Assembly: GCA_903813345.2 (NCBI GenBank)
Contig: CAIIXF020000003.1
Coordinates: 14,894,931 to 14,958,930 of the forward strand
Direction: 5' to 3'
Origin: Owenia fusiformis
Lineage: Eukaryota; Annelida; Polychaeta; Sabellida; Oweniidae
Length of the DNA: 64,000 nucleotides
Positions 3,114 through 62,490 of the stretch are shown here, in pieces (the stretch's first letter is position 1; the number at the start of each line of letters is the position of its first letter). The translations under genes were made by a program, and so were the position numbers. Below the pieces are notes generated by a model. The model was given only the letters and a program-made list of their open reading frames with translations. It was not told where the DNA came from and did no database searches.

Positions 3114-6100
3114 TTATCTTTGTGTTTCAAGAGTTTCTGGCTTCCACACTGCTGCGTCACTCGGCGGTAGTGGATCTCTTCCACGGATGGCATCTGCTAT
3201 TTTCTCAGCAATCATAACTGTTGGTCCATTAAGGTTTCCACTCACGACACTTGGCATAATAGAGGAATCTACTACTCTGAGACCGTCTATACCCAATACC
3301 CGACCTTGATTGTCAACAACAGTCATTGGATCATCAGTAGATCCCATTTTGCACGTGCAACTTGGATGGTACGCGGTGTCCGTTGCTTGGCGTACCCAGG
3401 CATCTATTTCGTCATCAGTGACGACACTGGGGCCAGGAGAAATTTCCTCCCCACGATACTCATCAAACGCTTTCTGTGCAAGAATCTCCCTGGACAGTTT
3501 TACTGATTGTCTAAGCTCCCAAATGTCAATTTCGGTCGCAAGGTAGTTAGGATCAATTAAAGGATGGTCCTTCGGGTTTTTGGATTTCAGCTTAATGTTC
3601 CCAATACTGGTCTGTCGCATCTGACTTGCATGGACCTGGTAGGCGTGACAGTTTCCACTTGTACGTCCGTGATCGAGCACGACAGACGGGAGAAAATGAT
3701 ACTGGATATCTGGGTGTGCGATTCCAGGTCGGCTACGTATCAATCCTCCCGATTCTAAATGCGCTGTTGCTCCCCAACCAGTCCTGGTTGCCAACCATTG
3801 TAAGCCAATCTTGACCATGTTATGGGGAAATTTCCACTGCGCCGTATAGAGAGTTATGGGTTTAACGCACTTCTGTTGGATATACAAATCGAGATGATCT
3901 TGAAGATTTTCACCAACCCCAGGAAGATGGGTCTGCACTGGAATATCAAGTGCTTTTAACTCGTCCGCGTTTCCAATGCCAGACAACATCAGTAGTTGCG
4001 GGGAATTAATTGCACCTCCACTAAGGATAACCTCATTTGCTTCAATACGTTTCAGTTCACCGTTTTGCTCATATTCAACTCCAGTAGCCTTGTCGTCAGA
4101 GAACAGGACACGTGTAGTGAACGCTTTTGTTTCTGTGTCCAGATTTGGTCTACTCAGAGCTGGCCTAAGATACGCTTGAGAGGTGTTCCACCTGCGCCCC
4201 TTGTGTATGGTCATATCCATTTCTCCCATACCCTCCTGGCAGAACCCGTTCATGTCCTCCGTATAAGGATATCCAGCTTGAACTCCTGCCTCTATGAATG
4301 CCTTATGTAAAGGATGCCCCGTTTTTCCACGTGACACCTGTAAAGGACCAGAGCCCCCTCTATAATCATTTTCCCCAAGCTCATGCGTCTGGGATTTTTT
4401 GAAATATGGTAAGCAGTTCGCATACGACCAACCCCTAGCGCCTTCGGATTCCCAGCGATCATAATCCAATGCGTGGCCACGGATATATACCATTGCATTA
4501 AGTGATGAAGAACCACCCCATACGCGACCTCTAGGCTGGTACATGACCCTGTTATCTACATTCTTCTGTGGCACTGTGTGATAAAACCAATTGTAGTTAT
4601 CATTACACAGATTGTACATCAATGCAGCGGGCATGTGGATTTTCCAGTTCCACCAATAATCCTTGGGTCCTGCTTCAAGAAGGAGTACGTTTTTACTTTG
4701 ATCCTCTGTTAGCCTATTTGCCAACACACACCCTGCAGATCCTGCGCCAACAATAACATAGTCATACTTCTTTGATAAACTGTTCGTGCTATATTGTCTT
4801 CTTATTGGTTGATTACATTGATGATATCTTGAATTTCTTGCTATCAGTAATTTGGGCGATGACTGGTGACACGTTGAATATGATCTAGTTTGGGGTACAG
4901 AAAGATTTGTAGATGTGTCCACATTTCCTAAATTGTGATGGTCGTCAGGGAGAACAATGGGCAACACGTGTATAGCACTTGGTACTACGTGGTCTGCGTC
5001 GGCTAGTTCCTCTGGTCCACATACACCAGTAAGCACAGCCACTGTTGCCCCAAGGTTGGCGGATCTTCCCATTCCTGTAACGGAAGACAGGACATCAGAG
5101 AGTATGCACTGTTAGGTGATTTAGAAATACACAATGCAAAGTTCAAGAAGGATATACAGAAGCAATATAAAAATACGGTCATGTCTATTTTAAAGTTTCA
5201 AAAAAGGTGAGACTGAAGTTGTCATTCCCAAACATTTCAAGTATGAAAAAGGTAAGCGGCAAGTTTTGGGTATCGGGTTTATCCCTCATGGATTGTGAGT
5301 CTCTTTCCCACAGCTCAATGGCACGCGTTAAAAGAATCGATCTGTGACTCATTATATTGCTATTTATTAAATTTCTAGAAACATCAAGAAGTGTTTAGAT
5401 ATGTATAAGGATTACTATGCCATTTCAGTTTAAGACAATAAATTGACTTGACAGTATGTCATCAGAATGTCGCGCATGTCAATGGCAATTATCAAAGATT
5501 TAAGACTAGACAAACATATGCTAGCAGATTGCAGAGTCATATAATATTTCAATTAAGGTCATTTTTGCAAGTCATGATCTTCAATTATTTATACATGATT
5601 GTAGACGTTTAACTTTTGACCTTTAGAATTTGATTTCATGTAAATGCTAAAATGGGCAATCAAACAAGGTGCGACGCTGTTATCAAATATTTTTAGGGTT
5701 GGAACAAGTCGGCCGTGAATTTGCCTTTATATTCGTTTGAATTCAACTTTCTACGAGGTTAGCAATTAAACATTTGTTCGTATTCACAATGTGTGAAATT
5801 GCGGTTATCAACAATATGATCTTGAGGTTATCAGTTTTCATGTAAGACCTATATGTTTTATATAAGACGCCCATGTTCACTTAGCATTGCAATTCATGAC
5901 TACACAATTTTGGATGTGTATAATAATGCTTTTCAGGATCCTCGATAGATGGGACAGAATTCAATGGTTTGAAATCCATACATTAACGCATGCATGAAAC
6001 TGCTTCAAAATCCTGATATAAGCTTGATAAATAAATAATGATCTGTGATCTCCCTAGAACAAGGAAAAATCCATTGAAATTACGAAATACCCCTAGGTAT

Positions 6101-9100
6101 ACTGGAAGGAGCGGTAAAAACTTCAACATTCGCATAAAAGTAGTTATCCAAAACAATGGAACATGGATTGAGCACATCATTCCTTAATCAGACATGTCTG
6201 TTGATGCCGCGTAACTTCTGCAAGATTAAAGACTGAGTGACCTTTAAGGTACCGACAAAGAGTTGAGACCTTCTTTTAAAATATGTGAGAATATTAGCTA
6301 GCCTATTATGTGAGTAAAAAGTGAGACATAGCTTGTTGCAAGGGTTCACTTTTTTGAACCACCCTGTATAAAAGTTTTTTTTCTTTTATAATCAATTTTC
6401 GAAATTAAATTGAAAAGTTTCACAGAGCACATTTTGATAACATTGAGTAGAACTATAATACGAGCCAAATTGGGTTAAACTTTATATGGGGCCTTTAAAA
6501 GTATAGTATAACTTACCGATATCAGCTAATGTGTCCCCGACCATGACAGTATCAGATGGATCAACATTGAGTGCATCACAGATGGTGTAAGCATTTTGCG
6601 GTGACGGTTTCGTCTCAGAACGGGCATCATCCCCACAGACGAGCGCATCAACATATTCCATCAGGCCCAATTTGTCCAGCGTTTCCATTGTTCCCTGGCG
6701 AGAGTCTGACGTACACACAGCTATTCTGATACCATACTGCTTTAGCTTTTTGAACGTGGGTAACACATCACCAACTGACTTAAGGGACTCCGAGTCTTGG
6801 ACTTCACAGCCGTCCCAGACTCGTTGAACAGTGGACCTGGCTTCTTCGTGGCTTATACCGTTTTCTTCAAGGATTTTGAAGAGTTCGTTTTGAACGTCCG
6901 TTTGTGTGCCTTCAGCAACTACGCCTGGTAGGAATTTATCAGTTTCCTTAGAGAATCCCAATCGTTCAAACACCGTATCTGCCAACTTTAATCCAGTAGC
7001 ATTTTCTAATCTAAAGAGAAATTCTCGTATTATCCTTCTAAGGGTTAAATCATTTAACAAAACGGTTGTGTTTTCATCTAATTGTTGACTGAATCTCGTT
7101 AGCCATTAACAGCATTTAAGAGACCAATGAGCTACGACAGTACATTTAGGAATTCTTATGATTGACCAATTTAATACTTCAGGAATTTGTAGGCGACAGC
7201 ATTCTATCTAGCAAATACCATAGGAAGGAAAATTCAATTTCAAATTATTTGATTCATGAAGATACCAATAGAACTTTAGATACTAGTATACCAAATATAA
7301 ATCAATTCTAATTCCAATGTCAAATATTCCATCATATGTCGTCCTAAGGTAATTAAATTGGCCAAATATCTTAAGATTAGTAAATGAATGACTATTTCTA
7401 TAGGACGTTCGTCATGCGAAACATACATTGCAGTGTCAGACTGCAGATTATCTATCACTCTTTGACATACAATTCGGGGCATAATTTGAAAATCTGCAAA
7501 AAGAAGTGTAGCTTTTTAATGAAATCCTTATGTACTGAATATCATATCTTAATTAGTATTAGAAATTGAATTGTCATTTTTTTGGCGTATAACACTATCG
7601 TAAATATAGTGCTCCGTCGGATTGTGTAGTAAAAGAGTGTCGCTCTGAATATTAAATTTAAATCAGACAGACCAACGAAATAGCCATACCACTCACCTCT
7701 TTGAGAGTTTCATTATCCATGGTCGCCACATGGAATGAAAACAAATAAGCGTTCCGTCCTTATCAAATATTACCAGGGACTTCTTTCTTCCTGGCAAATG
7801 GGCTTCTTTCTTCTTAGCTACCAGTCCATGCCTTTCCACACACTCTCTGAATTTAGCTTCAGGAAGTATAAGTGGAAGGACCTCCATAACGCTGTTCACC
7901 GTATTATTAGCGATTGGTTTGAGATCTTCTATAGTTCCTATACCGCTTAGAACTCCAACAACAGCGCCAGCACCCGCGTTTCTGCCCATTATCATATCAT
8001 TTGCAGTGTCCCCGATCAAGACAGTATCCTGCGGATTTATGTTCAACATTTGACAGATTAATTTGATATTATGGCCACTAGGGCGCGCCTTTGTGTTGAC
8101 GTCATCACCGCATACCATAGCACTGATATATTGTCTCAAACCGAGATTTTTCATCGCTTGAAGTGCTGATGTTCGTGATTCCCGAGTAGCTACTGCTATT
8201 TTTATACCCTCCTCAGTCAAGATACGAAACAATGTGACTAGATCATCTAGTTTTACTAATCGTTCGGAATCAACCTCCTCCCAAATCTGTTCAACCGTCC
8301 ATGCTGCTTCTTCCTCATTCATTCCTTCTTTTTGGAGGATATCTATCAAATGATGTTTGATTTCAGTGACCGTAGCTTCGGCTAAAAGAAGCCCTGGTTT
8401 AGTTTTCTGTGTGAGATCACAGAACCCCAGCTGATCATAAACTTTGCCTGATACATCCAGTCCTGTCATGTCTCTTATCCTGTAAAACAGCAAAAAGAAG
8501 TAATTCATTGTACAGAGGTGTCCTAAAGAAGAGGTAATCCCAAATAGTTTACTTTTAACGTTTTGAGGTTTTAACACTAACATTGCTCCATAGGAGACAA
8601 TCTAAATCAATTTCAATATAAATCTTCTGGAATTTCTTCGCTTGAAAATTAGCTATTAATTGATTATATAATTAATTAATAAACATGTACGTACCGCATG
8701 GTTGTATTTTGTATCCATGGACTCCATTTTGCATTGAAATCTGTCAATGTGCCATTTTTGTCAAAAATAACCAATTTCGGTATATCATCTTGTCCAATAA
8801 GAGGCCCATTTCGATCATTGTTTGAAGTATCTGCTCCGGCTACTGTTGAAAAATCTGTTAGCCTGGGGAAACCGTGTTTCCCTGATCGACCCCATGATAC
8901 AACAGCGCCACGCGTTCTTTCTGAAAATGTTTTGAGATGCGTTTAATTGATAATCCATTTTATTTTCGTTTAGAGCGTTTGAAGCTAATTATGTTTCAGC
9001 ATGTTAGAATTTTTTTATCAGGGCTCTATTAGTTTAATGGTTGTGTTTTCGTTTAATGTTACATTGCTAGGGCTCTATTAGTTTAATGGTTGTGTTTTCG

Positions 9101-11811
9101 TTTAATGTTACATTGCTAATAGGTTGTTGGTTGTAAAACAGCTCGAGAACTCTAATATACTACGACAAACAAATTGTACGGAACTTATTTCCAACGATTT
9201 GGAGCTCCAGGCCCATAGCCGGCAGGGTTTGCAAAGGGGCTCAATTTTTTGCAAAATTCCACGGGGTCCATTTTGACACCATTGGCCCACGATCATTGGC
9301 CAAAATCACTCGAAAAGTGCTCAAAATGGTGATTTTGAAAGAATTTTGGCCAGTGGGGGGTCGCTAGCCTTGCCCAAGTCGGTCTCTTTTACTATCTTGA
9401 TTTCTATTATGACCGCCTTGTACAAATGAGAAAGCCACGTGCTTTACCGACTCAATGTTTATGTCGGTAAAATTTGACCAATCAACGACGGCCCTGCAGC
9501 GTAAGCTCATATTATGCACGGTCAAAAACAAGTACACTTTTTACTTTTCGCCGGGACTTTTCACGAACAAATCTTGCATGAATTCATCATGAAAATAGAA
9601 ATATTTTATCAGATAAATATCAATCAGAGTTTAGTGGATGCCGGAGCATCGATTGGTAACCGGAGGTGAGAAGATTTCAACAATAAACGTTGAAACGATC
9701 GCTGAATTCAAATAAACATGTAGGCTGAGATTCAATCATTGATCGACTACATGACCCGCTACATTGGACTCGGTCTTGCATTTTCATCGCGAAATCAGTT
9801 GTATGATTTAATTTATATTAATGACTCTTACATTCCCTATGTACATTTAATTACATAATATATTGTAACTCTAAAGAAACGATCGATCAGATCATTGAAT
9901 TTCAAATCGTGAAGATTGCTTTGCTTATGCAGGTGAACCTGATAACGTTTTGATTGGTCAATCAGACTGAAGTCACACGTCGTGTCCACGCGTACAAGGG
10001 CGTTACAATACCCGGGAATTTATCGGTTCGTGCAGTACTTGTTTGTGATAGCGCCCTCTGTAGGTCACTGTGCTCATAGCCTACAGTAATACGGGGTAGG
10101 ATATCGGGAATTCGGTCAGTTTCTATCCGTCGATTTCGCTATGAATTGAAGCAAGTGTGACCACTTTATCCACTTAAACAATTTGATAATTGATTAAATC
10201 TTTAAACAAAATCGATAAACACGTTATACACTTCCTATCTCCTTAGAAATTAGCATGTATTTATGGATTGTGTTTTCGAACAAGGCACGACCCAGACCAA
10301 TAGGGAAATCCTTATGCTAATTAGTATGACGTCATATTTTCCTGGGGAATCCTAGATTTCAAAGCCTCAGTCTGTTATTGTGTCAAATGTAAACGCTCTT
10401 TTGCAGACAGAAAATTGACAGATTAGCTTTTAACTTTCAGCTTTGATGTTTAAATATTCTGTATTTCTACCGGACTTCTTGCTGAATATCATATAATGTT
10501 ATAGCTTGATTTGGACCATTGCCTGATTGATCATTCTGAAATTTTGATTGTGATTCATGATTGATTGGCAAGAAAAATAATTCCTATTGTTTTCCAGCGA
10601 AGTCAAAATGTTACAGCATGAGTTATAATGTCGAGTTTGCATCATGTTAAATTCTGCTAGTGATTAGAAGTCCATGCACAAGCATACACATAAGAGACAA
10701 ACACACCCAGGCTCCAGGCCGTGGATGGAAATATAAAACTATTTAAGGCACAAACTGGTATTAATAGACCGATATGTAGTGTCTGCCATGTATTGAAGGT
10801 AAACCAATCTGCATTATTAATGTTTCTTCTATCAATACATGGATTGTGCAATAGAAAAGCAATGGCACAATCAAAAATGTGCATATCAATCGTGAATATC
10901 TCTCGGTTCAAAGCTTATTTCCAACAGAATCGTGTCAAAATATGTGTCTGTGTAACAGTTATACATTATAAGATCGCAAACTCTTACCAATTATCAGCCG
11001 AATGGCTCATTTTCAACGAAATGTCCTTAAGACAACAGCCCTGGGTCGCGCCTGAGACCAAAAACTACTTCAAATAGCCCTCCCCTAATTATATTGGATA
11101 ATCACATTTATGCGTGCGCGCGCAGCTCATCCACTGAACGAAACGCCACTTCCCGCTGAAATCACCGGGTATTGATCTTTCCCTTGCGCGTATATCTGTT
11201 AATGAATAAGGTTTCGCGATACCCCTGATAGCGTAGGTATTATGGAAATCTCGAAACCGTTGAATAACTCTGCATAATATCAGCGCAGGTCTATTGGATT
11301 GTACAAGGCGGTAATAATTCAAGATCAGATAAGTAAAAAAATACCGACTTGGGCAAGGCTAGGGGGTCGCTTCCCCCTCCCTGTCTACGGGCCTGAGCTC
11401 TTACCTTCTTAACTCGATTCATAAATTATGTGTATTGCATTTCTTAATGATTTATATCTTACCAAATATTCTAAACATCATCGGATCGGATCTTTTTAAA
11501 ATGTATATGTCAACTGCCCTCTTCCTTCAGACCTTCTAAGCATTCCATTGGCTAGGGAACACCTAGAAAGATAATCATATAATGTGAAAGTAAACAAACG
11601 TTCACAGACTACCGAGTAAAACTACACCTACCTGCTTTTTGAACGAAAATACATTACCTGTTTCCACCCCATTATTAAAACCATAATATTCTGTACTTGC
11701 TTTCATGATATCAGAACCTCTTTCACCTGCCAAATATATACATGTAGGTTTGACAACCATATTTGGAAGTGTTACGATATTATTCATGTGTGAATTTCTA
11801 TTTTGTTCCAT
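3114..11811 (-). CDS. CHDH: Fusion protein: HAD phosphatase-like domain x2 plus choline dehydrogenase
   Basis: Five exons (minus strand): 11811-11658, 8920-8695, 8479-7697, 7010-6517, 5074-3114. All introns are GT-AG, phases match, and the total is 3618 nt (1205 residues plus stop). Residues 656-1205 are choline dehydrogenase, which oxidises choline to betaine aldehyde with FAD. Visible motifs are the FAD-binding VIVGAGSAGC, GMC signatures GGSSSLNAM and GAINSPQLLMLSGIG, the catalytic-His segment YHPSCTCKMG and NLNGPT; it ends ETQR, close to human CHDH (ATQR). Residues 100-330 and 360-600 are two HAD domains with a helical cap, phosphoglycolate-phosphatase-like. HAD2 has FDKDGTL (D366, D368), T488, K522 and GDTLAD (D547, D551). 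HAD1 has FDKNGTL (N106 for Asp) and R259 for Lys. HAD2 is completed inside the dehydrogenase exon, so the fusion is in one reading frame. Residues 610-655 are basic, lack acids and resemble a mitochondrial presequence. Exon 1 rests only on an ATG, a donor and matching phase; the other exons are firm. The HAD substrate is unknown. Confidence 0.88.
5075..6516. other. Last intron of the HAD-choline dehydrogenase gene
   Basis: The donor reads ATCG/GTAAGT and the acceptor TTACAG/GAATG. I see no gene or recognisable element inside. The 65-residue minus-strand open frame at 5983-6180 has no family resemblance. Confidence 0.7.
7011..7696. other. Intron 3 of the HAD-choline dehydrogenase gene
   Basis: The donor AGAG/GTGAGT and acceptor TTTAG/ATTAG join a split Arg codon (AG+A) just after the start of HAD2. 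Nothing else is recognisable inside. Confidence 0.7.
9021..9118. repeat. Perfect 49-bp tandem duplication
   Basis: Two identical copies (9021-9069 and 9070-9118) beginning GGGCTCTATTAGTTT lie in intron 1, about 100 bases upstream of the exon 2 acceptor. Identity of the copies implies a recent event or an assembly artefact. Confidence 0.85.
9208..11395. mobile_element. GTAGCC-family MITE, split by a 2-kb insertion
   Basis: Ends are CAGGCCCATAGCC on the left and CTACGGGCCTG on the right, flanked by AGCTC on both sides (5-bp target duplication). Related pieces occur near 17380, 36461, 58310 and 60210. The MITE is interrupted by the element at 9365-11361. It lies in intron 1 of the HAD-choline dehydrogenase gene. 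Non-coding. Confidence 0.7.
9365..11361. mobile_element. 2.0-kb non-autonomous TIR transposon with 9-bp target duplication
   Basis: The ends are inverted (TAGCCTTGCCCAAGTCGGT and its complement) and similarity continues inward for about 70-80 bases, including CGCCTTGTACAA. The 9-bp GGGGGTCGC flanks both sides (9356-9364 and 11362-11370). A 9-bp duplication with long ends fits Mutator-like elements; hAT (8 bp) is an alternative. I found no transposase in the interior. It sits inside the MITE at 9208-11395, so it is the younger insertion. Confidence 0.75.
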
Positions 11812-20690: not shown

Positions 20691-21784
20691 CGAGGGATGA
20701 TCCAAAAGTCTTGGACGCCCTGCCCTATTTTTGTTGGTTTTTGATAAAATTTCTTTAAACTTTCCAATAATAAAGACCAACAACCTAACTACTTTGTGTA
20801 TTAATTTCATGGAGAAATGATATATTTTATATAGTTTTCTAGATAGTTTTTAATACAGGGACCCTGCCACCCGGAACGGTATTTGCACATGGCTACTTTC
20901 AGCCTTAAATGTTACCGCCATTTCACTTGTTTCGCAAGTCTTGACAAATATATTTCTTTGAATTTTGAATGTTAAACCATGTTAGTTTACTTCCTTTATT
21001 ACTAGGCAACCAATTAATTGTGTTTTAATTATAATGCCACATATGACAATGGCCGCACATGGTCAAATTCTAAGAAAATGCCATCAGACAAGCAACCCTC
21101 ATTCTGGTATCACGTTTGCTGCAAGATGGCTGCTGAAATGCAGAACACGAAAGAAATCAAAGTGGAACAAAGAATACTACAAGATATTTTCACTATTATT
21201 GACCTTGAGCAGCTACCTTATGCACGATACAGTCTAGATATGGCTCCATGTGATTTTCTTCCTTTTCTCCAAGTTGAAAGGAGGGTTGAAAGAAAATGTT
21301 TTTTACTCATTGAATGAGGTTTAGAGTAGCACCCCAGCAGCATGTGTATCACATAAGCAATGGCGGTTTCATAAATGTCTTCCATTCATTGGTAAAGTGG
21401 TATGAAAAATGTGTTCAAATTCATGGAAAATATGTTGAAAAGTAGGTCTTAATATGTGAAGATGATGATGGCAGATGACACTCAAGATTGAAAATCGAAA
21501 ATTCTCTCATATCATTGCTGGTGTAAGGTTTGCACCTGCACCTAAAGTATTTGCCATATTATAAAAGTTGTGACGTGATTTGCTATATTTAAATACCGTT
21601 CCGGGTGGCAGGGACGCGGTATTAAAAGATATGTAGAAAAATAGCTAAAATATATTATTTTCTGTTGAACCTTATACATAAAGTTGTTAAGATGTTGATC
21701 TTTATTATCTAAAGGTTTTATGTAATTATATTTAAAAATAGCAAAGATAAAGCGGGGCGTCCAAGACTTTTGGATCACCCCTCG
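20691..21784. mobile_element. Mariner-type (IS630-Tc1-mariner) element with long inverted ends
   Basis: TA flanks both ends (20689-20690, 21785-21786). The inverted ends begin CGAGGGATGATCCAAAAGTC / CGAGGGGTGATCCAAAAGTC and stay similar for about 195 bp, to the shared CCACCCGGAACGGTATTT near 20870-20890. Between them (about 21200-21440, plus strand) lies a decayed transposase C-terminus: RYSLDMAPCDF matches the family motif YSPDLAPCDF, followed by remnants of an LKG...F.S..E segment in shifting frames. No intact transposase. The total length of 1094 bp is close to the family norm. Confidence 0.8.
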
Positions 21785-22339: not shown

Positions 22340-23580
22340 CATTCAGGATAGGGGTGACCATATCTCACATGATTAACTTCTAAAATATGGAGCATATGTA
22401 TCTCAAATGTACTCAAAATGGTGTATGTACTCTTGCTTTGTCATAATATTACTAATAAGAAGTAGAAAAATGATTGTACAATTTAAAAAAATATTAATTC
22501 TCATTTTGGCTTCTGACGTCCCAGGGGTGACCATATCTCACCTTAGTAACTTCCAAAATATGGAGCATATGTATCTCAAATGTGCTCAAAATGGTGTATG
22601 TACTCTTGCTTTGTCATAATATTACTAATAAAAAGTAGAAAAATGATTGTACATTTTAAAAAATATTAATTCTCATTTTGGCTTCTGACGTTCCAGGGGT
22701 GACCATATCTCACCTTAATAACTTCCAAAATATGGAGCATTTGTATCTCAAATGTGCTCAAAATGGTGTATGTACTCTTGCTTTGTCATAATATTACTAA
22801 TAAGAAGTAGAAAAATGATTGTACAATTCAAAAATATTAATTCTCATTTTGGCTTCTGACGTTCCAGGGGTGACCATATCTCACCTTAATAACTTCAAAA
22901 ATATGGAGCATTTGTATCTCAAATATGCTCAAAATGGTGTATATAGTCTTGCCTTGTCATAATATTACTAATAAGATGTAGAGAAATTATTGTACATTTT
23001 AAAAATATTAATTTTCATTTTAGCTTCCGACGTTCCAGGGATGACCACTGACCATATCTCACCTTAATAATTTCCAAAATATGTAACATATGTATCTCAA
23101 ATGTACTCAAAATGGTGTATATAGTCTTGTCTTGTCATAATATTACTAATAAGATGTAGGAAAATGATTCCACATTTTTAAAAATATTAATTCACATTTT
23201 GGCTTCTGACTTCCCAGGGGTGACCATTTCTCACCTTAATAACTTCCAAAATATGGAGCATATGTATCTCAAATGTACTCAAAATGGTGTATGTACTCTT
23301 GCTTTGTCATAATATTATACTAATAAGAAGATTATACATTTAAAAATTTTTAATTTTAGCTTCTGATGTCCCTCAATAACTTCTAAAATTATGTAACATA
23401 TACAACTCAAATATACCAAAAATGGGGCATATGGTCTTGCTTTGTCATAATATTATTAATGAGATGTAGAAAAAATTATTACACCTTTTTTGAATTGAAA
23501 TTTTCATTTTAGCTTCCGAATCTGACATCCAAGGGGCAACTATATCTCACCTTGATATAACTCTCACGATATGTAACATG
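22340..23580. repeat. Tandem array of ~172-bp units (left arm)
   Basis: Successive copies start near 22350, 22526, 22698, 22868, 23040 and 23218, with more decayed copies near 23360 and 23530. A unit contains GACCATATCTCACCTTAATA, ATGGAGCATATGTATCTC, CTTGCTTTGTCATAATATTA and TCATTTTGGCTTCTGACG. Copies nearest the outer end are the most alike; decay increases inward. Short open frames in the array are by-products. Confidence 0.85.
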
Positions 23581-26869: not shown

Positions 26870-27790
26870 AGGACACATTTGAGATGCATATGTTGCATAT
26901 CGTGAGAGTTATCAAGGTGAGATAGCCCCTGGGACCCCAGAGGCTAAAATTAAAATTTATAAAAAAATGCAATCATTTTTTTACATTTCATTAGTAATAT
27001 GAAAAAGACAGGACTTTTCTGAGAATATTTGAGGATTATATGTTACATATCTTAGAAGTTATTATTATTATTATATGGTGCGATATGATTACCCAAGAAC
27101 GTAAGAAGCTAAAATTAAAATTTTTGAAATGTATAATCATTTTTCTACTTCTTATTAGTAATATTATGATAAAGCAAGAGTACATACACCTTTTTGAGTA
27201 TATTTGAGATACATATGCTCCATATTTTGGAAGTTATTAAGGTGAGATATGGTCACCCCTGGGACGTCAGAAGCCAAAATGAGAATCAATATTTTTTAAA
27301 ATGTACAATCATTTTTCTACTTCTTATTAGTAATATTATGACAAAGCAAGAGTACATACACCATTTTGAGTACATTTGAGATACATATGCTCCATATTTT
27401 GGAAGTTATTAAGGTGAGATATGGTCACCCCTGGGACGTCAGAAGCCAAAATGAGAATCAATATTTTTTAAAATGTACAATCATTTTTCTACTTCTTATC
27501 AGTAATATTATGACAAAGCAAGAGTACATACACCATTTTGAGCACATTTGAGATACATATGCTCCATATTTTGGAAGTTATTAAGGTGAGATATGGTCAC
27601 CACTGGGACGTCAGAAGCCAAAATGAGAATTAATATTTTTTAAAATGTACGAACATTTTTCTACTTCTTATTAGTAATATTATGACAAAGCAAGAGTACA
27701 TACACCATTTTGAGTACATTTGACGAGATACATATGCTCCATATTTTGGAAGTTAATCATGTGAGATATGGTCACCCCTATCCTGCATGA
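26870..27790. repeat. Tandem array of ~172-bp units (right arm, inverted)
   Basis: Inverted copies of the left-arm unit start near 26880, 27190, 27362, 27535 and 27705. Two nearly identical 61-residue open frames (27194-27379 and 27366-27551) are just the same repeat translated twice. Confidence 0.85.
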
Positions 27791-36977: not shown

Positions 36978-39900
36978 TTAAGATATGATGCAAACCTTCT
37001 TTGCTGCGTTTGCTTTTTGCTTTTGTTCTTCCAAATCTGCCATCATCTGTAAAGCTTGTACTCCTTTCACAAGTGAACTGGACCTAAAATATCCAATAAC
37101 GTAATTTATTATTACTTTATTACAAAATATTATCATTAAATGCTCTATAGATCCGAAAGGATATCAAGCTAATTGGCATATTCTATTAAATGTATGTAAT
37201 ATTACTGTTGAATAAAAAAAATTGTACATACGAATTCATTCGTAATCACAGTCAATATGCAGTTATGATTTGGGGCACGTTGAAATCATGATGTATACCT
37301 TCTTCGCTCCAATTTCAATAACGTAGTCTAGAGTTTCCGACAAAAAGTTGGTGTTGTCCAAAATGCTGCAATCTGATTGGTAAAAAATTCGAAAAATGCC
37401 TTTTTTAATGTTTTGATGATGTAACTATCAAAAGGTAAAATTCTTGTTCAAATTCCTGAATCATCACAACCCTGATATATTATTACAATATTGGAACAGC
37501 TGTAAGATCATATTCACCTGTTTTACAGGGTGTCCAAAAAACAGGACCGTAAAAAAGTTGAATAACTCGGTCAATTTTGCATATTTTGCCTTGAAATTTT
37601 AGAATTATTCAGTTCATTCAATGTGAATTTAGTTGTGAAAGTTTGATAATAATCTACTAATTGAGTCAAAAACTACAGCTCCTTACAAAACATGCCCCAA
37701 ATGTGCACCTCTCCTCTCTATGCACAATTCAATCCAGCGAACAAAGTTGTTGATGATCCTCCTACACACATGTCTATCTAAATGGACAAGTTTGTTCCAA
37801 GAACAATTGCTACCGGGGCTTACATCAAAAACTACAGCTCCTTACAAAACATGCCCCAAATGTGCACCTCTCCTCTCTATGCACAATTCAATCCAGCGAA
37901 CAAAGTTGTTGATGATCCTCCTACACACATGTCTATCTAAATGGACAAGTTTGTTCCAAGAACAATTGCTACCGGGGCTTATATCCTCCTGATGAAGTGT
38001 TACAGCATCCATTGCATTCTGAACAATGCACTGCCTGGGTGACAATGAGGAAACATGGAATCATCAGTCCTTTTTGGTTTGAAGGTGACTGGGGATGGAC
38101 GTGCTATCACCATGAACAAGGACCAGTAAGTTCTCACTAAGTTTTGGAGGTCACTAAGCACCAGAAGGGACATCTAAGGAGATAAGCAGTGGTTTCAACA
38201 AGCCAATACCACCCCAACACTTCAAATGATATGCTAAAATGGTTTAGGCAATGCTTTGGTGGTCAGCTCATCAGTTGCAGGAAGCAAACCATATGGGCAG
38301 CTCATTCGCCAGATCTAAATCTCCCAAATTTTTATCTTTGAAGATTTCTCAAAGACAATGTGTATATTGACAGGCCCCTAACAATCTTTAGAGGGCAATA
38401 TCTACCCCAATATTTACCATTCACATTAATGTGTATAGGTCAGAGCCATTAACAACTTTGTTCGCAGGATTCGTTTGTGCATAGAGAGGAGAAGTGCCCA
38501 ATTTGAGTATGTTTTGTAAAGTACTGTAGTTTTTGACACAATGAATAGATCATCATCAAACTTTTAGAACAAAATTCACATTGAATGAGCTAAATAATTT
38601 TAAAATTTCAAAGCAAAATATGCAAACTTGACCGAGTTATTCAACTTTCTTACGGTCCTGTTTTTTGGACACCCTGTATTAAATTCAAAATTCAAAATCG
38701 GAAAGTTTTCACCTATTGAACATGGAGATAAGAAGGTATACATCATGATTAGGGCTTGGCCCAAATCAAAACTGCATACTGACTGTGTGCTACTCAAATG
38801 TGATGAGCAGAATTCCATCAGTTATTCCTGAGAACAAATCCTTCAGAACAAAGCCTAAGGCTTTATAGTTACAACTTTAAGAAAAGAGCAACGTAAGTTT
38901 CGAGGAGTTGTACCTGTAGTCCCGGACTTTACTATTAATGAATACTTAAATAAATTATAGAATGAAGAAGTGCCCACTCTAATCTACATCCATTAAACTC
39001 GACTAAATCGACAACGACACAGTGCAATCTACAAAATAAGCTACGTACCGCTCAATGACTATATTCGCTTTCATCATATCACCTAAAACACAAAAGGTGA
39101 GATTATTGATTATCGGCATCATGGTCAAATTGATGTCATTCTTCGACAGACCAATATTAAAAATGCCACATACTTCCTGATGCAACAAGTATCAAAGCTT
39201 TACTGTTGAAAACCAACTCAATATCATTGACGTCTACTACAGCTCGTTTCCCGTCAGTTTGCTTCACGACTGCAGCGTGTCCCAAAGCCTGGAAAAAGAT
39301 TTTAAAAACAGATTTTATACACATTTGTTGATTATGCTTGCAATGGTTTTACTAAGGTTGAACTTGTTGAAGGGGGGGGGGGGTGTTATTCTTATTTTCT
39401 TCAATTGCACCCTCAACCTTTTTTAATCAATTTCGGCTGTCCCGTTTTGGTACCCTGGCCTACTTATACTATTTATTCATCTTACATGTACCTCGATCAT
39501 TTTTGGAACCCAACTGCCTTGCTGAATTTGTTTCACTTTTTCATAGTCGTCGATGATTATAACCAAAGACCCAGAATCGATTTCTTCTTTCGATGTGTCA
39601 ACCTTACCGAGAAGTTCAGGATTCAGGCACCATCTACAAAATAGAGAATTTAAGCTTGCACTGCAACGTAACCGTGAATGGAGAGTACATGAATCAATAT
39701 TATAGGAATAATATAATTTGATTTAATTTCATGCATGGAAAATAACCATGTCATTGTCATTAGTGAAACTTGGCTTAATTCTAAAACTTCTGACCTTCTA
39801 ATTCAGAATTATAAAGAACCAATAACCTGTTATAAAGAACTGATACGTAAAGATCGTACAACTTCAATTGGCGGCTTTTAACGTCAAAGAATAACTTGCA

Positions 39901-45900: not shown

Positions 45901-48900
45901 CCCCATTCCCAATAAGATTGTATTTCCATATAATAGCTATTAGATATACATGTGTTCCTCGTTATGAGATTTGTCGAATTAATGTTATTTTTACTGGTTT
46001 AAAGCTAGTGATAATAACTGCTGAGCCTGTTGGCGAGTGTAGGTTGAGGAGGATCTCTTTAAATCACATTCAAAAAATTGTATATGAAAGTTGTTAAACT
46101 AAATTGATAAGTATATATGCCCACGCCCTAACCAACTGAACCTCGGCTAAGCGTTGATAACATACCCTGTGTCCTTGGTTGTGGTTGTGGTTGCGGTGCG
46201 CGTCGTCGCCGGGCCTTTGGTTGTCCTTCCGCCGGAATGCCCTTTTCCACCGAGGCTAAATGAACGTTATACAAAAACGATAACTCTAAATCTCTAGGTG
46301 GATGTGCCTTACAAGTAAATCATTATCGCCAGTAGCCTTTTTGAATTTTCATAATCAGTATTATTGTATTAATTTTTATTGTAGTTTTATTTTATGTAGT
46401 TGAGTTGCCAATAATGTTTGCTTCGCCAGCTTTGTAAAAAAAACTTTGTTGTGAATTTTACTATGATAATAAAAAAAGTTCATTATTGTTACCTCCACTA
46501 TTAATAAATCTAAACTACGAGATTCAAGAATCCATCAAAATAAAACAGTTTCACAACAATTGGAGTGCACCATGTTTTGGTCGTCCTACATAATTAATGT
46601 ACTACAGAATATGATATTCATTGAGTCGTAAGAATACATATACTGAAATGTGTATTATACTCATCTTGATTGTATGTTACACGATTATTCTTATTCTTTA
46701 TTTAAACATTCTGTAACTATAGTAACAGGTTCATTAAAATGTTAACTTAATAAACCATTTTATTACCAAACATCCGATCCATTTCTTTCTTCACTTCACT
46801 AGAAGAAATTCTATATTGGGCAGTAGCTCCGACCATTGTATGTATAAGTCGTTTAACATCTTTGACAATTTGAGGATCACGATCTGCTATTGGTGCTATC
46901 TTTACATTGGATCCAGGTTGAGCTAGAAGCGCCCCTATCGGCAACGTTGTCATTGTAGGACTGACAGCTTTAAGTTCAGGATTACACATATATGTACATT
47001 GTATGTGACGTATAAAAAGTGCGATATACTGTATATATAGAGGTTATTTAATGGGAGATTTTTAATGCAGGGTATATCTGAGGGAAATACAATATATCTT
47101 TTATTTTATCAAGATAATCATTAAACTTTCATTTGAATAAGTTTTTTATGTGTTTTCTAAAGCAATATATAAAAGTTAAAAAACATTTACTAATTAAAAT
47201 TGTGACCATTTAAAAGATGACCATTATATTGATGATGTGTAAATTTTTCCCCAAAAATTGATGACTGGTTTAAAAAAAAAATGGGTCCAATCCTTTCTTA
47301 TTAGTGTAATCAGCACCAGACAAATGATTACTATCTTACACACAAAAACAACAATATATAATATCAAATTTTTTTAACGTGTACAACTTTTCAACCGATA
47401 TAATAGGGGTTGATTGTGGGGATGGAGGCCAACTGCTCGAAAAAAGATCAGAACTTGTTACTACTCTGCAAAAGTTTTTATTAGCTGAAAGCTTCCTCCA
47501 AGACATCCCCGAACTAAAAATGTTGTCAAAGTGAGTAAATGCCATTTGTTGAGAATTCTGTCTTTGTCCCTAGAGTAAATTCAATTTTTACTCATGTACT
47601 AGTATCTCATGAAGTACCCTATATTCAATATCATATAACAGCAGCGGTGTACAAAATACCTGGTAAAGGAAGAATCAAGCCCTTGTTCTTTTCAGAATCT
47701 AGTATTCCACTATAGATCAGGCCAAGGGAAAACACATCGACACTTGACGTATATTTTTCTCTTTTGAAAAGTTCTGGCGCCGCGAAGCAAGGTGTCCCAA
47801 GTGACGTACTCATCATAAATGTCTTCATTGAATTGACTTTGTCATCTGCTAGTTTTGATATTCCAAAATCTGTCAGCTTTAAACAACAAAGATATTTTCT
47901 CACATATACACAATATAAACTGTACAGGTTAACCTAAAGATGTTATCATCTGAGAGGCCTGTTTTTTAAATTTTAGAATTGCTACTGTGATCGTGTTTCT
48001 TTTTTCACTTTAATTCTTATATAACCTCAGACGTTTCGACGCTATGCTCATATTACATGTCAAGAGTTGCTCATTATATGAGCTGCTTAGATAAACCTGG
48101 CATATATTGTCATCATTGAAACCTTTACTGAGAAGCAAAATAAGCACCTTGGTAGACTATGTAATCACTGGCGGATCTGGGGGGCTGCCCCCTGGGCGTA
48201 AAAAGGCCAAATTCAATTTCAAAATTTGGGCCCACTTTTGGGTTTTTGGGGCCCAAAAGTTTTTTCCGCGCTAGCGCGGAAGTTTTTTTCAGTGACCTGA
48301 AATTTGCCCCCACCCCCGTGTTGGTTCCCAGATCCGCCCCTGGTAATATATATTACTGTACCTTCAAGACTGCTACTCCAGTTTGATAACTTATCAACGT
48401 ATTTCCTGGTTTTAAATCACGGTGGACTAGTTTGGAATCATGGAGATGTTTTACCCCATTGGCCAGTTGATGCATGAAATCCACTTTTACAGCAATATCG
48501 AGTTTTCCTTCGACTTTCTTAAAGTAATTTTCAAGATCGCCACCATCGCAAAATTCCATTACGAGCCAAAATGACTTCTTTAAAAAATGGAAATCATGGA
48601 ATTTCACCACGTTAGCATGATCGGTCAACTTTTGGAGGATTTTAATTTCTTCCATTCCATCCATTGTTTCTTCCATCGAGTCACTTGTAATCTGTTTAAT
48701 AGCAACTGGAGTGCCATCTTTCCGTTCGCCTCTAAAATGAACGAATTCACTTAATGTATTAACCATGAGTACAGGGTGTTAGCAGCCAGTACGAATACTT
48801 TATATCACTTATTGCTTCCCATACTGCCTGCTATCAAAGATAAATGATTCATGATACATTTAAGCTTACACTGTACCTTTCAACTGTAAATTTATTTTGA

Positions 48901-60679: not shown

Positions 60680-62490
60680 GATTTAGCTGACTTAATCAAA
60701 ACATAAAAGAGTGGTATTGATATGGAGAACTGAATTCAACAATGTTTTTCTCTTAAACCAACCATTGAAAACATTCTGTAAAAAACACGGTATTTTATGT
60801 AATGTTGACTGATTGACAACAATTTGATGCGAAAATTATTTAGAAATATTTTATAATAATTGTTTTTCTTAACATTTTTTTGTTTTTTAGAGCAATTGTT
60901 TTTGCTCCTTTCTACCAATTCTTGAGAATGAAATAAAATGTATTTCCGAACCTTGTTGGAACAAAATAGCATATACCAGGTCGATCAATAAGTTCATAGA
61001 AAATGTCTCTAAAATTGTGAGTATTTGCTCAAGAGATGAAATTTTCACAAGGTATGGGAAATGTATTTCACTGTAGGTTCTGTCAGTTTCATACTGATCC
61101 ATGATGTGTTCATTGATTGGCGGTTGCTATAGTAACCCGTAAAATGGGTACGCGGTGCAACATTTAATAGCGATGCTTTATGTTTTTATCAAAGCATTTA
61201 TTTCATAATATATCATATTATATGTCATGCTAACATTTTGCCTTCATAACAGTATACCAAATGTACCCACCTAAGTGTTCTAGTAACAGTTATATTAGAT
61301 ATTCAAAATATTTCCCATTGTGGAGAATATAGAGTTCATGTCTTTTAACCCAATCTTGGTACACTTTTCTGAAGCCATCGGGGAACATTTTCCTCAGTGC
61401 AGCTTGGACAGCATGATGCAGCTCATCAACCCTATGAAATCTTACACCTCGGAGCTCTTCCTTCAGCTTGCCAAATACTCCATAATCTAGAGGAGCCTTG
61501 TCAGGTGAGTATCGAGCTTGGTCAAGGACGCTCATAGATAATGTTTCTCGGATAGTATCCTGCACTACCTGATGCGATGGTGCGTTATCTTAATGGAAAA
61601 CCTGGCCGTCATTGCGTTTCTTCTCAGAGTTTGTTGTCACAATTATTTTATGACATTAAGGGAACGATCTGTGATGTCATAATAGGAATGAGTATACATT
61701 TGTGATATCATACATGGAATTGTTTCCATAGCAACAATGTGGAAAACAAAACGGTCTGACAGTTATTTCAAATTATGGTAGTAATTCCACATCATGCTTG
61801 TTGGAAATTATGGTTTTTTAACTGCACCACATGCGTGTTGTACGAGTTACCATGGCAACCATTTATCAAAGAATATTGTGTTATTGTTCATGCAACTTAT
61901 GGAATAAATAATCAGATAAATTGTCTACATTCTGTGCAAATTTGGCATGGTTTGAGTGAAAACTCTCAATTTAAGAGATATTTTCCATGAACTTATTGGT
62001 CGACCTGGTACCACACGTTTTTAGACCTCTCAATATCATAGTTATACAAAGGAATTTTTGGTTGATTTTAAAAAAGTATTCAAAAAATTAAAACAAAAAC
62101 CTCCCAAAATAGATAAAAATCAAGATAAACATTTTATTTCATTAAAAAGATACTTTTTTAAAATCAACCAAAATTTCCTTTGTACAATTACAATATTGAG
62201 AGACCTAAACATGTTTTGTTCTAATGAGGTTCGGAAAGATGTTTCATTTCACTCTGGAACATGATACCAAGAACAAAACAAGTGTTTGATGTGTTTTCTA
62301 AAACAATATAGATGAAAGTATACATATATTTTTCAAATTATATTGTAAACAAAAGATGACCATTAAATTGACGATGTGTTTTATTTTTAGATTTTTTAGG
62401 TTTAAGAGAAAAGTGTGTTCAAAAAGTTCTCCATATCGATACCACTCCTTTGCAAAATCAACCTTAAAAAGGTCATTGAATGTCAATCGA
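60680..62490. mobile_element. Element with ~290-bp inverted arms enclosing a mariner and a hairpin MITE
   Basis: The left arm (about 60680-60970) and right arm (about 62210-62490) are inverted copies: GGTATTGATATGGAGAACT, TTTCTCTTAAACC, ATTTCATTCT and CCGAACCTTGTTGGAACAAA. Between them lie the mariner at 60976-62008 and a hairpin of about 200 bp (62012-62212; CTCAATATCATAGTTATACA with AATTACAATATTGAG). Part of the arm also occurs at 47150-47245. Confidence 0.6.
60976..62008 (-). mobile_element. Mariner element, truncated transposase
   Basis: TA on both sides (60974-60975, 62009-62010). Inverted ends CCAGGTCGATCAATAAGTTC / complement of CCAGGTCGACCAATAAGTTC. On the minus strand, 61600-61290 encodes the C-terminal third of a mariner transposase: DNAPSH, then YSPDKAPLDYGVFGKLKEEL, VYQDWVKRHELYI and a stop. 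An in-frame stop lies just before DNAPSH, and the N-terminal two thirds are missing, so it is inactive. Confidence 0.85.

Follow-up and report, generated by a model that had tools for sequence, protein, structure and literature searches.

A gene of Owenia fusiformis joins two HAD domains to a choline dehydrogenase, with a possible route from phosphocholine to betaine

Choline dehydrogenase is the first enzyme on the way from choline to betaine, a protective solute. MtlD, a bifunctional mannitol-1-phosphate dehydrogenase/phosphatase, makes the osmolyte mannitol, and its phosphatase acts last. The MtlD of Acinetobacter baumannii (PDB 7ocn and others) likewise has a HAD phosphatase in front of a dehydrogenase, but it differs from the fusion described here in having a single HAD and a dehydrogenase of another family. 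The phosphocholine phosphatases PHOSPHO1 and PchP are similar to the HADs of the present gene in superfamily and in the proposed reaction; they presumably belong to a different HAD subgroup. PHOSPHO1 is set apart by the Pfam result, since the PHOSPHO1-type family (PF06888) gave no match at E<=0.001 with the full protein or at E<=1 with HAD1 alone. The yeast Arg5,6 precursor is cleaved internally by the mitochondrial processing peptidase (MPP) and yields two enzymes, as described in a review (PMC8835746). It is comparable as two enzymes in one mitochondrial precursor that is cut inside, but the enzymes are other ones and the cleavage of the present precursor is only predicted. In Eubacterium limosum, an MttB-superfamily enzyme uses phosphocholine (PMC12155760). 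This Mth pathway is similar in that phosphocholine is the substrate of the MttB-superfamily enzyme, but it is bacterial and the partner is a choline kinase, not a phosphatase. Proteins of PF06253 are increased in Ruegeria pomeroyi on N-osmolytes such as betaine (PMC12478193). No HAD phosphatase appeared in the passages searched on the E. limosum and N-osmolyte pathways.

The components of the present gene are known and their combination appears to be new. A HAD-choline dehydrogenase fusion is not described among the open-access full-text matches listed; other animals may carry one that is already annotated.

The gene is on the minus strand of the window, the whole 64-kb stretch of DNA that was analysed. 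Its five exons form a single frame of 1205 residues (Table 1), in agreement with the first-pass annotation, which had read two HADs and a choline dehydrogenase over five exons with matching phases. The exon coordinates given there are correct. All four junctions border GT-AG introns and have compatible phases (1, 2, 2, 1). The protein begins with an N-terminal part (1-97), which is followed by HAD1 (about 98-335) and HAD2 (about 360-598). A linker (599-655) separates HAD2 from a GMC oxidoreductase (656-1205). Pfam models match the full protein accordingly, with PF00702 and PF13419 in two stretches each and PF00732 and PF05199 once each.

Table 1. Coordinates of the exons and domains of the fusion gene in the window.
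Feature	Position	Strand	Remarks
Exon 1	11658..11811	-	51 residues with ATG start; assignment uncertain; open frame, donor CAG/GTAATG rank 7/496
Exon 2	8695..8920	-	Basic amphipathic N-terminal stretch; first strand and motif I (DKNGT) of HAD1
Exon 3	7697..8479	-	Remainder of HAD1; first strand and motif I (DKDGT) of HAD2
Exon 4	6517..7010	-	HAD2 body as far as GDTLADIG
Exon 5	3114..5074	-	HAD2 tail, linker, complete choline dehydrogenase and stop
HAD2 tail (MGRSANLGATVAVLTG...)	4938..5074	-	Alignment with HAD1 tail and bacterial HADs
Linker, residues 599-655	4767..4937	-	D/E absent from 606; R-x-Y-S-T motifs at 616 and 645
Choline dehydrogenase domain	3117..4766	-	PF00732, PF05199; TIGR01810

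Splice sites in the region 12500-2900 (496 GTs and 522 AGs) were scored with a simple weight matrix of human frequencies. The four donors used rank 1, 4, 6 and 7 among the GTs, and the acceptors rank 1 (5074), 2 (8479), 48 (8920) and 155 (7010) among the AGs. The matrix rates 7010 as a weak acceptor and 8920 as an ordinary one; the 7010 join is fixed through homology. Exon 1 is the weakest part of the gene model and remains uncertain. Pfam gave no domain match above cut-off in exon 1 and the start of exon 2, so the join between these exons stands without a homology check. A second open frame overlaps exon 2 on the minus strand (8815-8988); it is rich in R, F and N, contains a Met, has the look of a presequence and ends in a stop. 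Intron 1 contains a perfect 49-base repeat in two copies (9020-9118).

The fusion of both HADs to the choline dehydrogenase is confirmed at the DNA level, with two observations behind the join between HAD2 and the dehydrogenase. The dehydrogenase exon had been proposed to begin in the middle of a HAD fold, directly after GDTLADIG, and the gapless alignment with HAD1 and the bacterial HADs bears this out. Across the intron at 6516-5075, the join of GDTLADIG to MGRSANLGATVAVLTG restores a stretch that is unbroken in those sequences. The first 45 residues of exon 5 align with the tails of HAD1 and the bacterial HADs; therefore, exon 4 must join exon 5 for a complete HAD fold. Exon 5 then stays open from the HAD2 tail through the 57-residue linker and the whole dehydrogenase, with no internal stop. 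By intron composition, 56 consecutive codons would lack a stop with a probability of about 0.02, and 21/630 intron windows of the same size are stop-free. The sole Met before the FAD motif of the dehydrogenase is M554, the first codon that is wholly within exon 5, and it is inside the HAD fold. The next Met comes after the FAD-binding motif. Since exon 5 has no suitable Met, a product with only the dehydrogenase would require another first exon. Such a transcript may exist; the candidates listed for it all lack a donor in intron 4, which holds none of the 14 best donors by the weight matrix (score 2.48 or more).

HAD2 has a complete set of catalytic motifs, with D366 and D368, the T of motif II, the K of motif III and GDTLAD; motifs I-IV of HAD phosphatases read DxDGT, S/T, K and GDxxxD. 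HAD1 has lost the second catalytic (acid/base) Asp, as it reads DKN at 105-107 (D105, N107), and R replaces the K of motif III. The Pfam HAD models still match HAD1. Both domains are interrupted by an intron of identical phase at one and the same alignment column, which fits a tandem duplication. A tree of 82 rows (HAD1, HAD2 and 80 bacterial relatives) places them as sisters (100/99) beside HADs of Chloroflexota (98/89). Among the best 25 of 38 and the best 25 of 31 NCBIfam matches, the HADs pass no equivalog cut-off; the one cut-off passed is that of TIGR01549, a broad model of the HAD-IA subfamily. Against NF046057, the MtlD equivalog, the HADs score 30.8 and 39.8 vs a cut-off of 800 bits. 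The sequence matches of HAD2 in the PDB are led by N-acylneuraminate-9-phosphatase. A model of the Chloroflexota relative L015, built with 28 sequences, has a mean pLDDT of 89.3; its nearest folds by Foldseek are AlnB and MtlD (TMq about 0.6 for the MtlD structures). HAD1 also has one weak match in a phage.

The choline dehydrogenase label given to the third domain stands. The domain passes the TIGR01810 betA equivalog cut-off (757.8 vs 732.1 bits) and that of PRK02106 (828.7 vs 605). It is similar to BetA over the whole length, with 50-58% identity to six bacterial BetAs, and its HPSC and GNLN stretches match all six. The gene differs from BetA in the two HADs that precede the dehydrogenase on the same chain and in D948, where Asp takes the place of the conserved Glu of the QDHLE motif. 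Glu is present at this position in the six aligned BetAs, in PDB chain 9lq0 and in 12/12 distinct stretches found by a motif search that caught the BetA loci in part. This Glu presumably corresponds to the one that contacts the choline headgroup in choline oxidase, so the replacement suggests that the enzyme might use choline less well. No match to the dehydrogenase exon was found in viral_contigs.

The linker has features of an internal mitochondrial presequence. Residues 606-656 contain no Asp or Glu, and a 45-residue window free of both is found in this protein only with a start at 606-612. The pattern R-x-[YFL]-[SA]-[STA], which resembles the consensus of mitochondrial cleavage regions, has two matches in the entire protein and both are within the linker (616 and 645). 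Shuffling the linker letters 20000 times gave two or more matches in 0.055% of cases, and shuffling the complete protein 2000 times did so in 1.8%. The hydrophobic moment of the linker is unremarkable (78th percentile), and the peak value for the protein falls at residues 58-75 in exon 2. Thus the motifs and the charge fit a presequence but the amphipathicity does not. Since the acid-poor linker holds both motifs, the chain may be cut there. The earlier description of one chain therefore applies to the joined frame, while the mature form is possibly not a single chain. That description had noted neither these linker features nor the lost acid/base Asp of HAD1. The codon score of the linker (amino acid part -11.2, synonymous part -4.7) is inseparable from that of intron, and 4/52 held-out coding windows score as low. 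The score was at first read as evidence for a non-coding linker, but its synonymous part fails to discriminate in held-out coding windows, and codon use was dropped as an argument in either direction.

Bacterial relatives of the HADs were found in a genome_contigs scan with an alignment query, which gave an encoded relative in at least 545 of at least 591 stretches, and the best 80 loci were used; HAD2 as a lone query gave no match in the same collection. In one locus from Acidiferrobacteraceae (L028), betA is head to head with the HAD. A sample of 100 genomes from the gammaproteobacterial order of L028 had a HAD match of some kind in 65 and a match at E<=1e-30 in 25. In 13 of these 25, betA is head to head with the HAD within about 210 bp. 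In one more genome (G034) the HAD is tail to tail with another GMC gene. In two (G071 and G077) the distance to betA is about 4.5 kb, and a transporter separates the two genes where the gene order was read (L138). The other 9/25 have no betA within about 1.5 kb of the HAD, nor on the same contig among the matches listed. TIGR01810 is passed by both dehydrogenases tested from the 13 genomes (G001 and G003) and by the distant one of G071. Among all 30 loci from the order search, a dehydrogenase match is nearby in 16, and for two of these the HAD match is a weaker one. GMC genes are frequent in this order, with at least one match at E<=1e-90 in 89/100 genomes.

Seven loci with wide flanks share a block of peptidase, aminotransferase, Nudix, betA, HAD, phosphatase-like and glyoxalase genes. 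The identity of the HADs in the 13 genomes to that of L028 is as low as 39%. Since the pair sits in a longer conserved block, the HAD-betA pairing across the 13 genomes is probably one inherited, conserved arrangement. Within 1.5 kb of the HAD, betA is found in 0/9 other genomes of the class and 0/3 Chloroflexota, and within 5 kb in 1/80 of the genome_contigs loci. The adjacency of HAD and betA was first taken as strong evidence and was downgraded after the wider samples and in view of the surrounding block. The bacteria with betA beside the HAD are not the nearest relatives of HAD1 and HAD2 in the tree.

Other genes of a choline or quaternary-amine context also occur near some of the HADs. 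The HAD is carried by 3/121 genomes of the phylum Chloroflexota (E<=1e-25) and by 17/251 genomes of one of its orders (E<=1e-40). In one Chloroflexota locus (L128), a gene for phosphoethanolamine N-methyltransferase follows about 30 bp after the HAD on the same strand; its best PDB match is phosphoethanolamine methyltransferase (E 2.9e-69). The end product of this enzyme is phosphocholine. Three loci of the Chloroflexota order (L232, L235 and L240) have MttB-type or corrinoid genes near the HAD. In 13 of the 17 genomes of the order that carry the HAD, neither a methyltransferase nor MttB/corrinoid genes are present in the 3.6-18 kb examined. Two weak methyltransferase matches in Chloroflexota (about 30%, E 8e-10 and 4e-9) appear UbiG-like by eye and were not counted.

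Within flanks of up to 5 kb, the 80 genome_contigs loci contain an MttB-family gene in 32, a corrinoid protein in 3 and betA in 1, with any of these in 34. In Rhodobacterales, an MttB-family gene is within about 0.5 kb downstream of the HAD in 15/18 loci. The Mesorhizobium clade has an MttB, corrinoid or betA context in 15/15 loci, at about 3.6-4 kb from the HAD. Such genes are absent within 5 kb in Stappia (0/2), the Rhizobium clade (0/10) and the remaining rows (0/12), and the clade around the HADs of the window has this context in only 4/23. In a phylum sample centred on L028, the HAD is present in 35/299 genomes; the 30 loci taken include MttB in 8 and betA in 1, the latter in the L028 genome. 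Any of betA, MttB or corrinoid genes is within 1.5 kb of the HAD in 9/30 loci (8/29 without L028) vs 0/30 for phosphoglycolate phosphatase loci of the same phylum sample, where 1/30 has a weak methyltransferase match. Since this control covers other taxa than the HAD loci, a control within the same genomes was added. In matched genomes with both genes, the context is found for 0/17 phosphoglycolate phosphatases vs 4/16 HADs; both controls are small.

Other contexts were also seen. A related HAD is between waaA and lpxK on pSymB of Sinorhizobium meliloti (L002, 2624-5866), and further relatives are inside ABC-transporter operons of unknown substrate. These contexts indicate that the HAD family is not uniform. 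Stappia has two adjacent HAD genes of the family (L041 and L051, about 4282-5666), which parallels the tandem HADs. A glycine-cleavage T-like gene is near the HAD in 3/80 loci.

The preferred explanation builds on the joined frame, the tandem duplication of the HAD, the loss of D+2 in HAD1, the motifs of HAD2 and the betA membership by score, all of which are read directly from the sequence. It is that this nuclear gene encodes a mitochondrial precursor of a degenerate HAD, an intact HAD phosphatase and a choline dehydrogenase that would convert phosphocholine to choline and on to betaine; this is quite possible but short of probable. The precursor would enter the mitochondria, where HAD2 would hydrolyse phosphocholine or a close choline phosphate, and the dehydrogenase would oxidise the released choline towards betaine. 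HAD1 could be a structural or regulatory partner. The processing peptidase may cut the linker and so release equal amounts of the HAD pair and of a mature dehydrogenase of the usual form; if the linker is left uncut, both active sites would stay on one chain. Phosphocholine is made in the cytosol, so a phosphatase in the matrix would need phosphocholine import.

The first-pass annotation had guessed phosphocholine as the substrate. The bacterial context (betA, methyltransferase and MttB) favours this guess indirectly; the family matches obtained include none that is named after this activity. The other suggestion of that annotation, phosphoglycolate, has a weak HAD-IA resemblance far below cut-off. 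Taken together, the methyltransferase neighbour, betA, the MttB literature and the fusion itself make a choline phosphate the most plausible guess at the HAD substrate. Since many HAD relatives are outside a choline-type context, phosphocholine is treated as a supported hypothesis and not as a result. A wider and more tentative proposal is that the HAD family of Chloroflexota, Proteobacteria and this animal consists of choline-phosphate phosphatases, which here were doubled, with one copy decayed, and fused into the betaine route. If so, a phosphatase family so far listed under generic HAD names would gain a function. There would also be a direct gene-level link from membrane-lipid breakdown, by way of phosphocholine, to betaine, a main osmolyte and methyl donor. 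The proposed partnership has evidence of two kinds, from the fusion in the animal and from the gene neighbourhood in some bacteria.

It is somewhat unlikely that HAD2 is unrelated to choline and acts in metabolite repair or on another substrate, such as phosphoglycolate, a sugar phosphate or a by-product of the betaine pathway. The top generic profiles would suit this reading, as they are phosphoglycolate-phosphatase-like, PhnX-like and CTE7-like (all far below cut-off), and so would the relatives that neighbour lipid A genes or belong to ABC-transporter operons. The recurrent choline/quaternary-amine gene context and the fusion itself argue against it. A mitochondrial polyprotein is also conceivable, in which the presequence is cut, the HAD pair and the dehydrogenase act apart, and the fusion merely co-expresses or co-targets them as in Arg5,6. 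This seems unlikely. Both R-x-Y-S-T motifs and the acid-free windows of the linker are in its favour, together with the precedent of internal MPP cleavage in Arg5,6 (PMC8835746), but the linker has no strong amphipathic helix. A polyprotein without a common pathway also conflicts with the bacterial context, which ties the HAD family in part to choline/betaine genes, and a shared pathway is therefore likelier than none.

A recent or local merge without function, or an assembly that joined two genes, is quite unlikely; in this case a separate transcript with a different first exon would also encode the dehydrogenase. The fusion was seen in one genome, three acceptors within exon 5 (4927, 4884 and 4862) outscore the used acceptor 7010, and the linker resembles intron in codon use. 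Against this, the frame from HAD2 to the FAD motif has no stop and no start except M554, some held-out coding windows match the low score of the linker, and the 14 best donors are all outside intron 4.

The window also contains features away from this gene. Two tandem arrays of a 172-base repeat are at 22350-23330 and 27121-27779, and their printed units are mutually reverse-complementary. Open frames at 61293-61589 (minus strand) and 21018-21314 (plus strand) appear mariner-transposase-like by eye, with no Pfam match. Pieces of a protein kinase gene are on the minus strand at 46750-48778, with PF00069 in the frames 47634-47933 and 48356-48778. A 159-base unit is present in two copies at 99% within one open frame (37666-37985).
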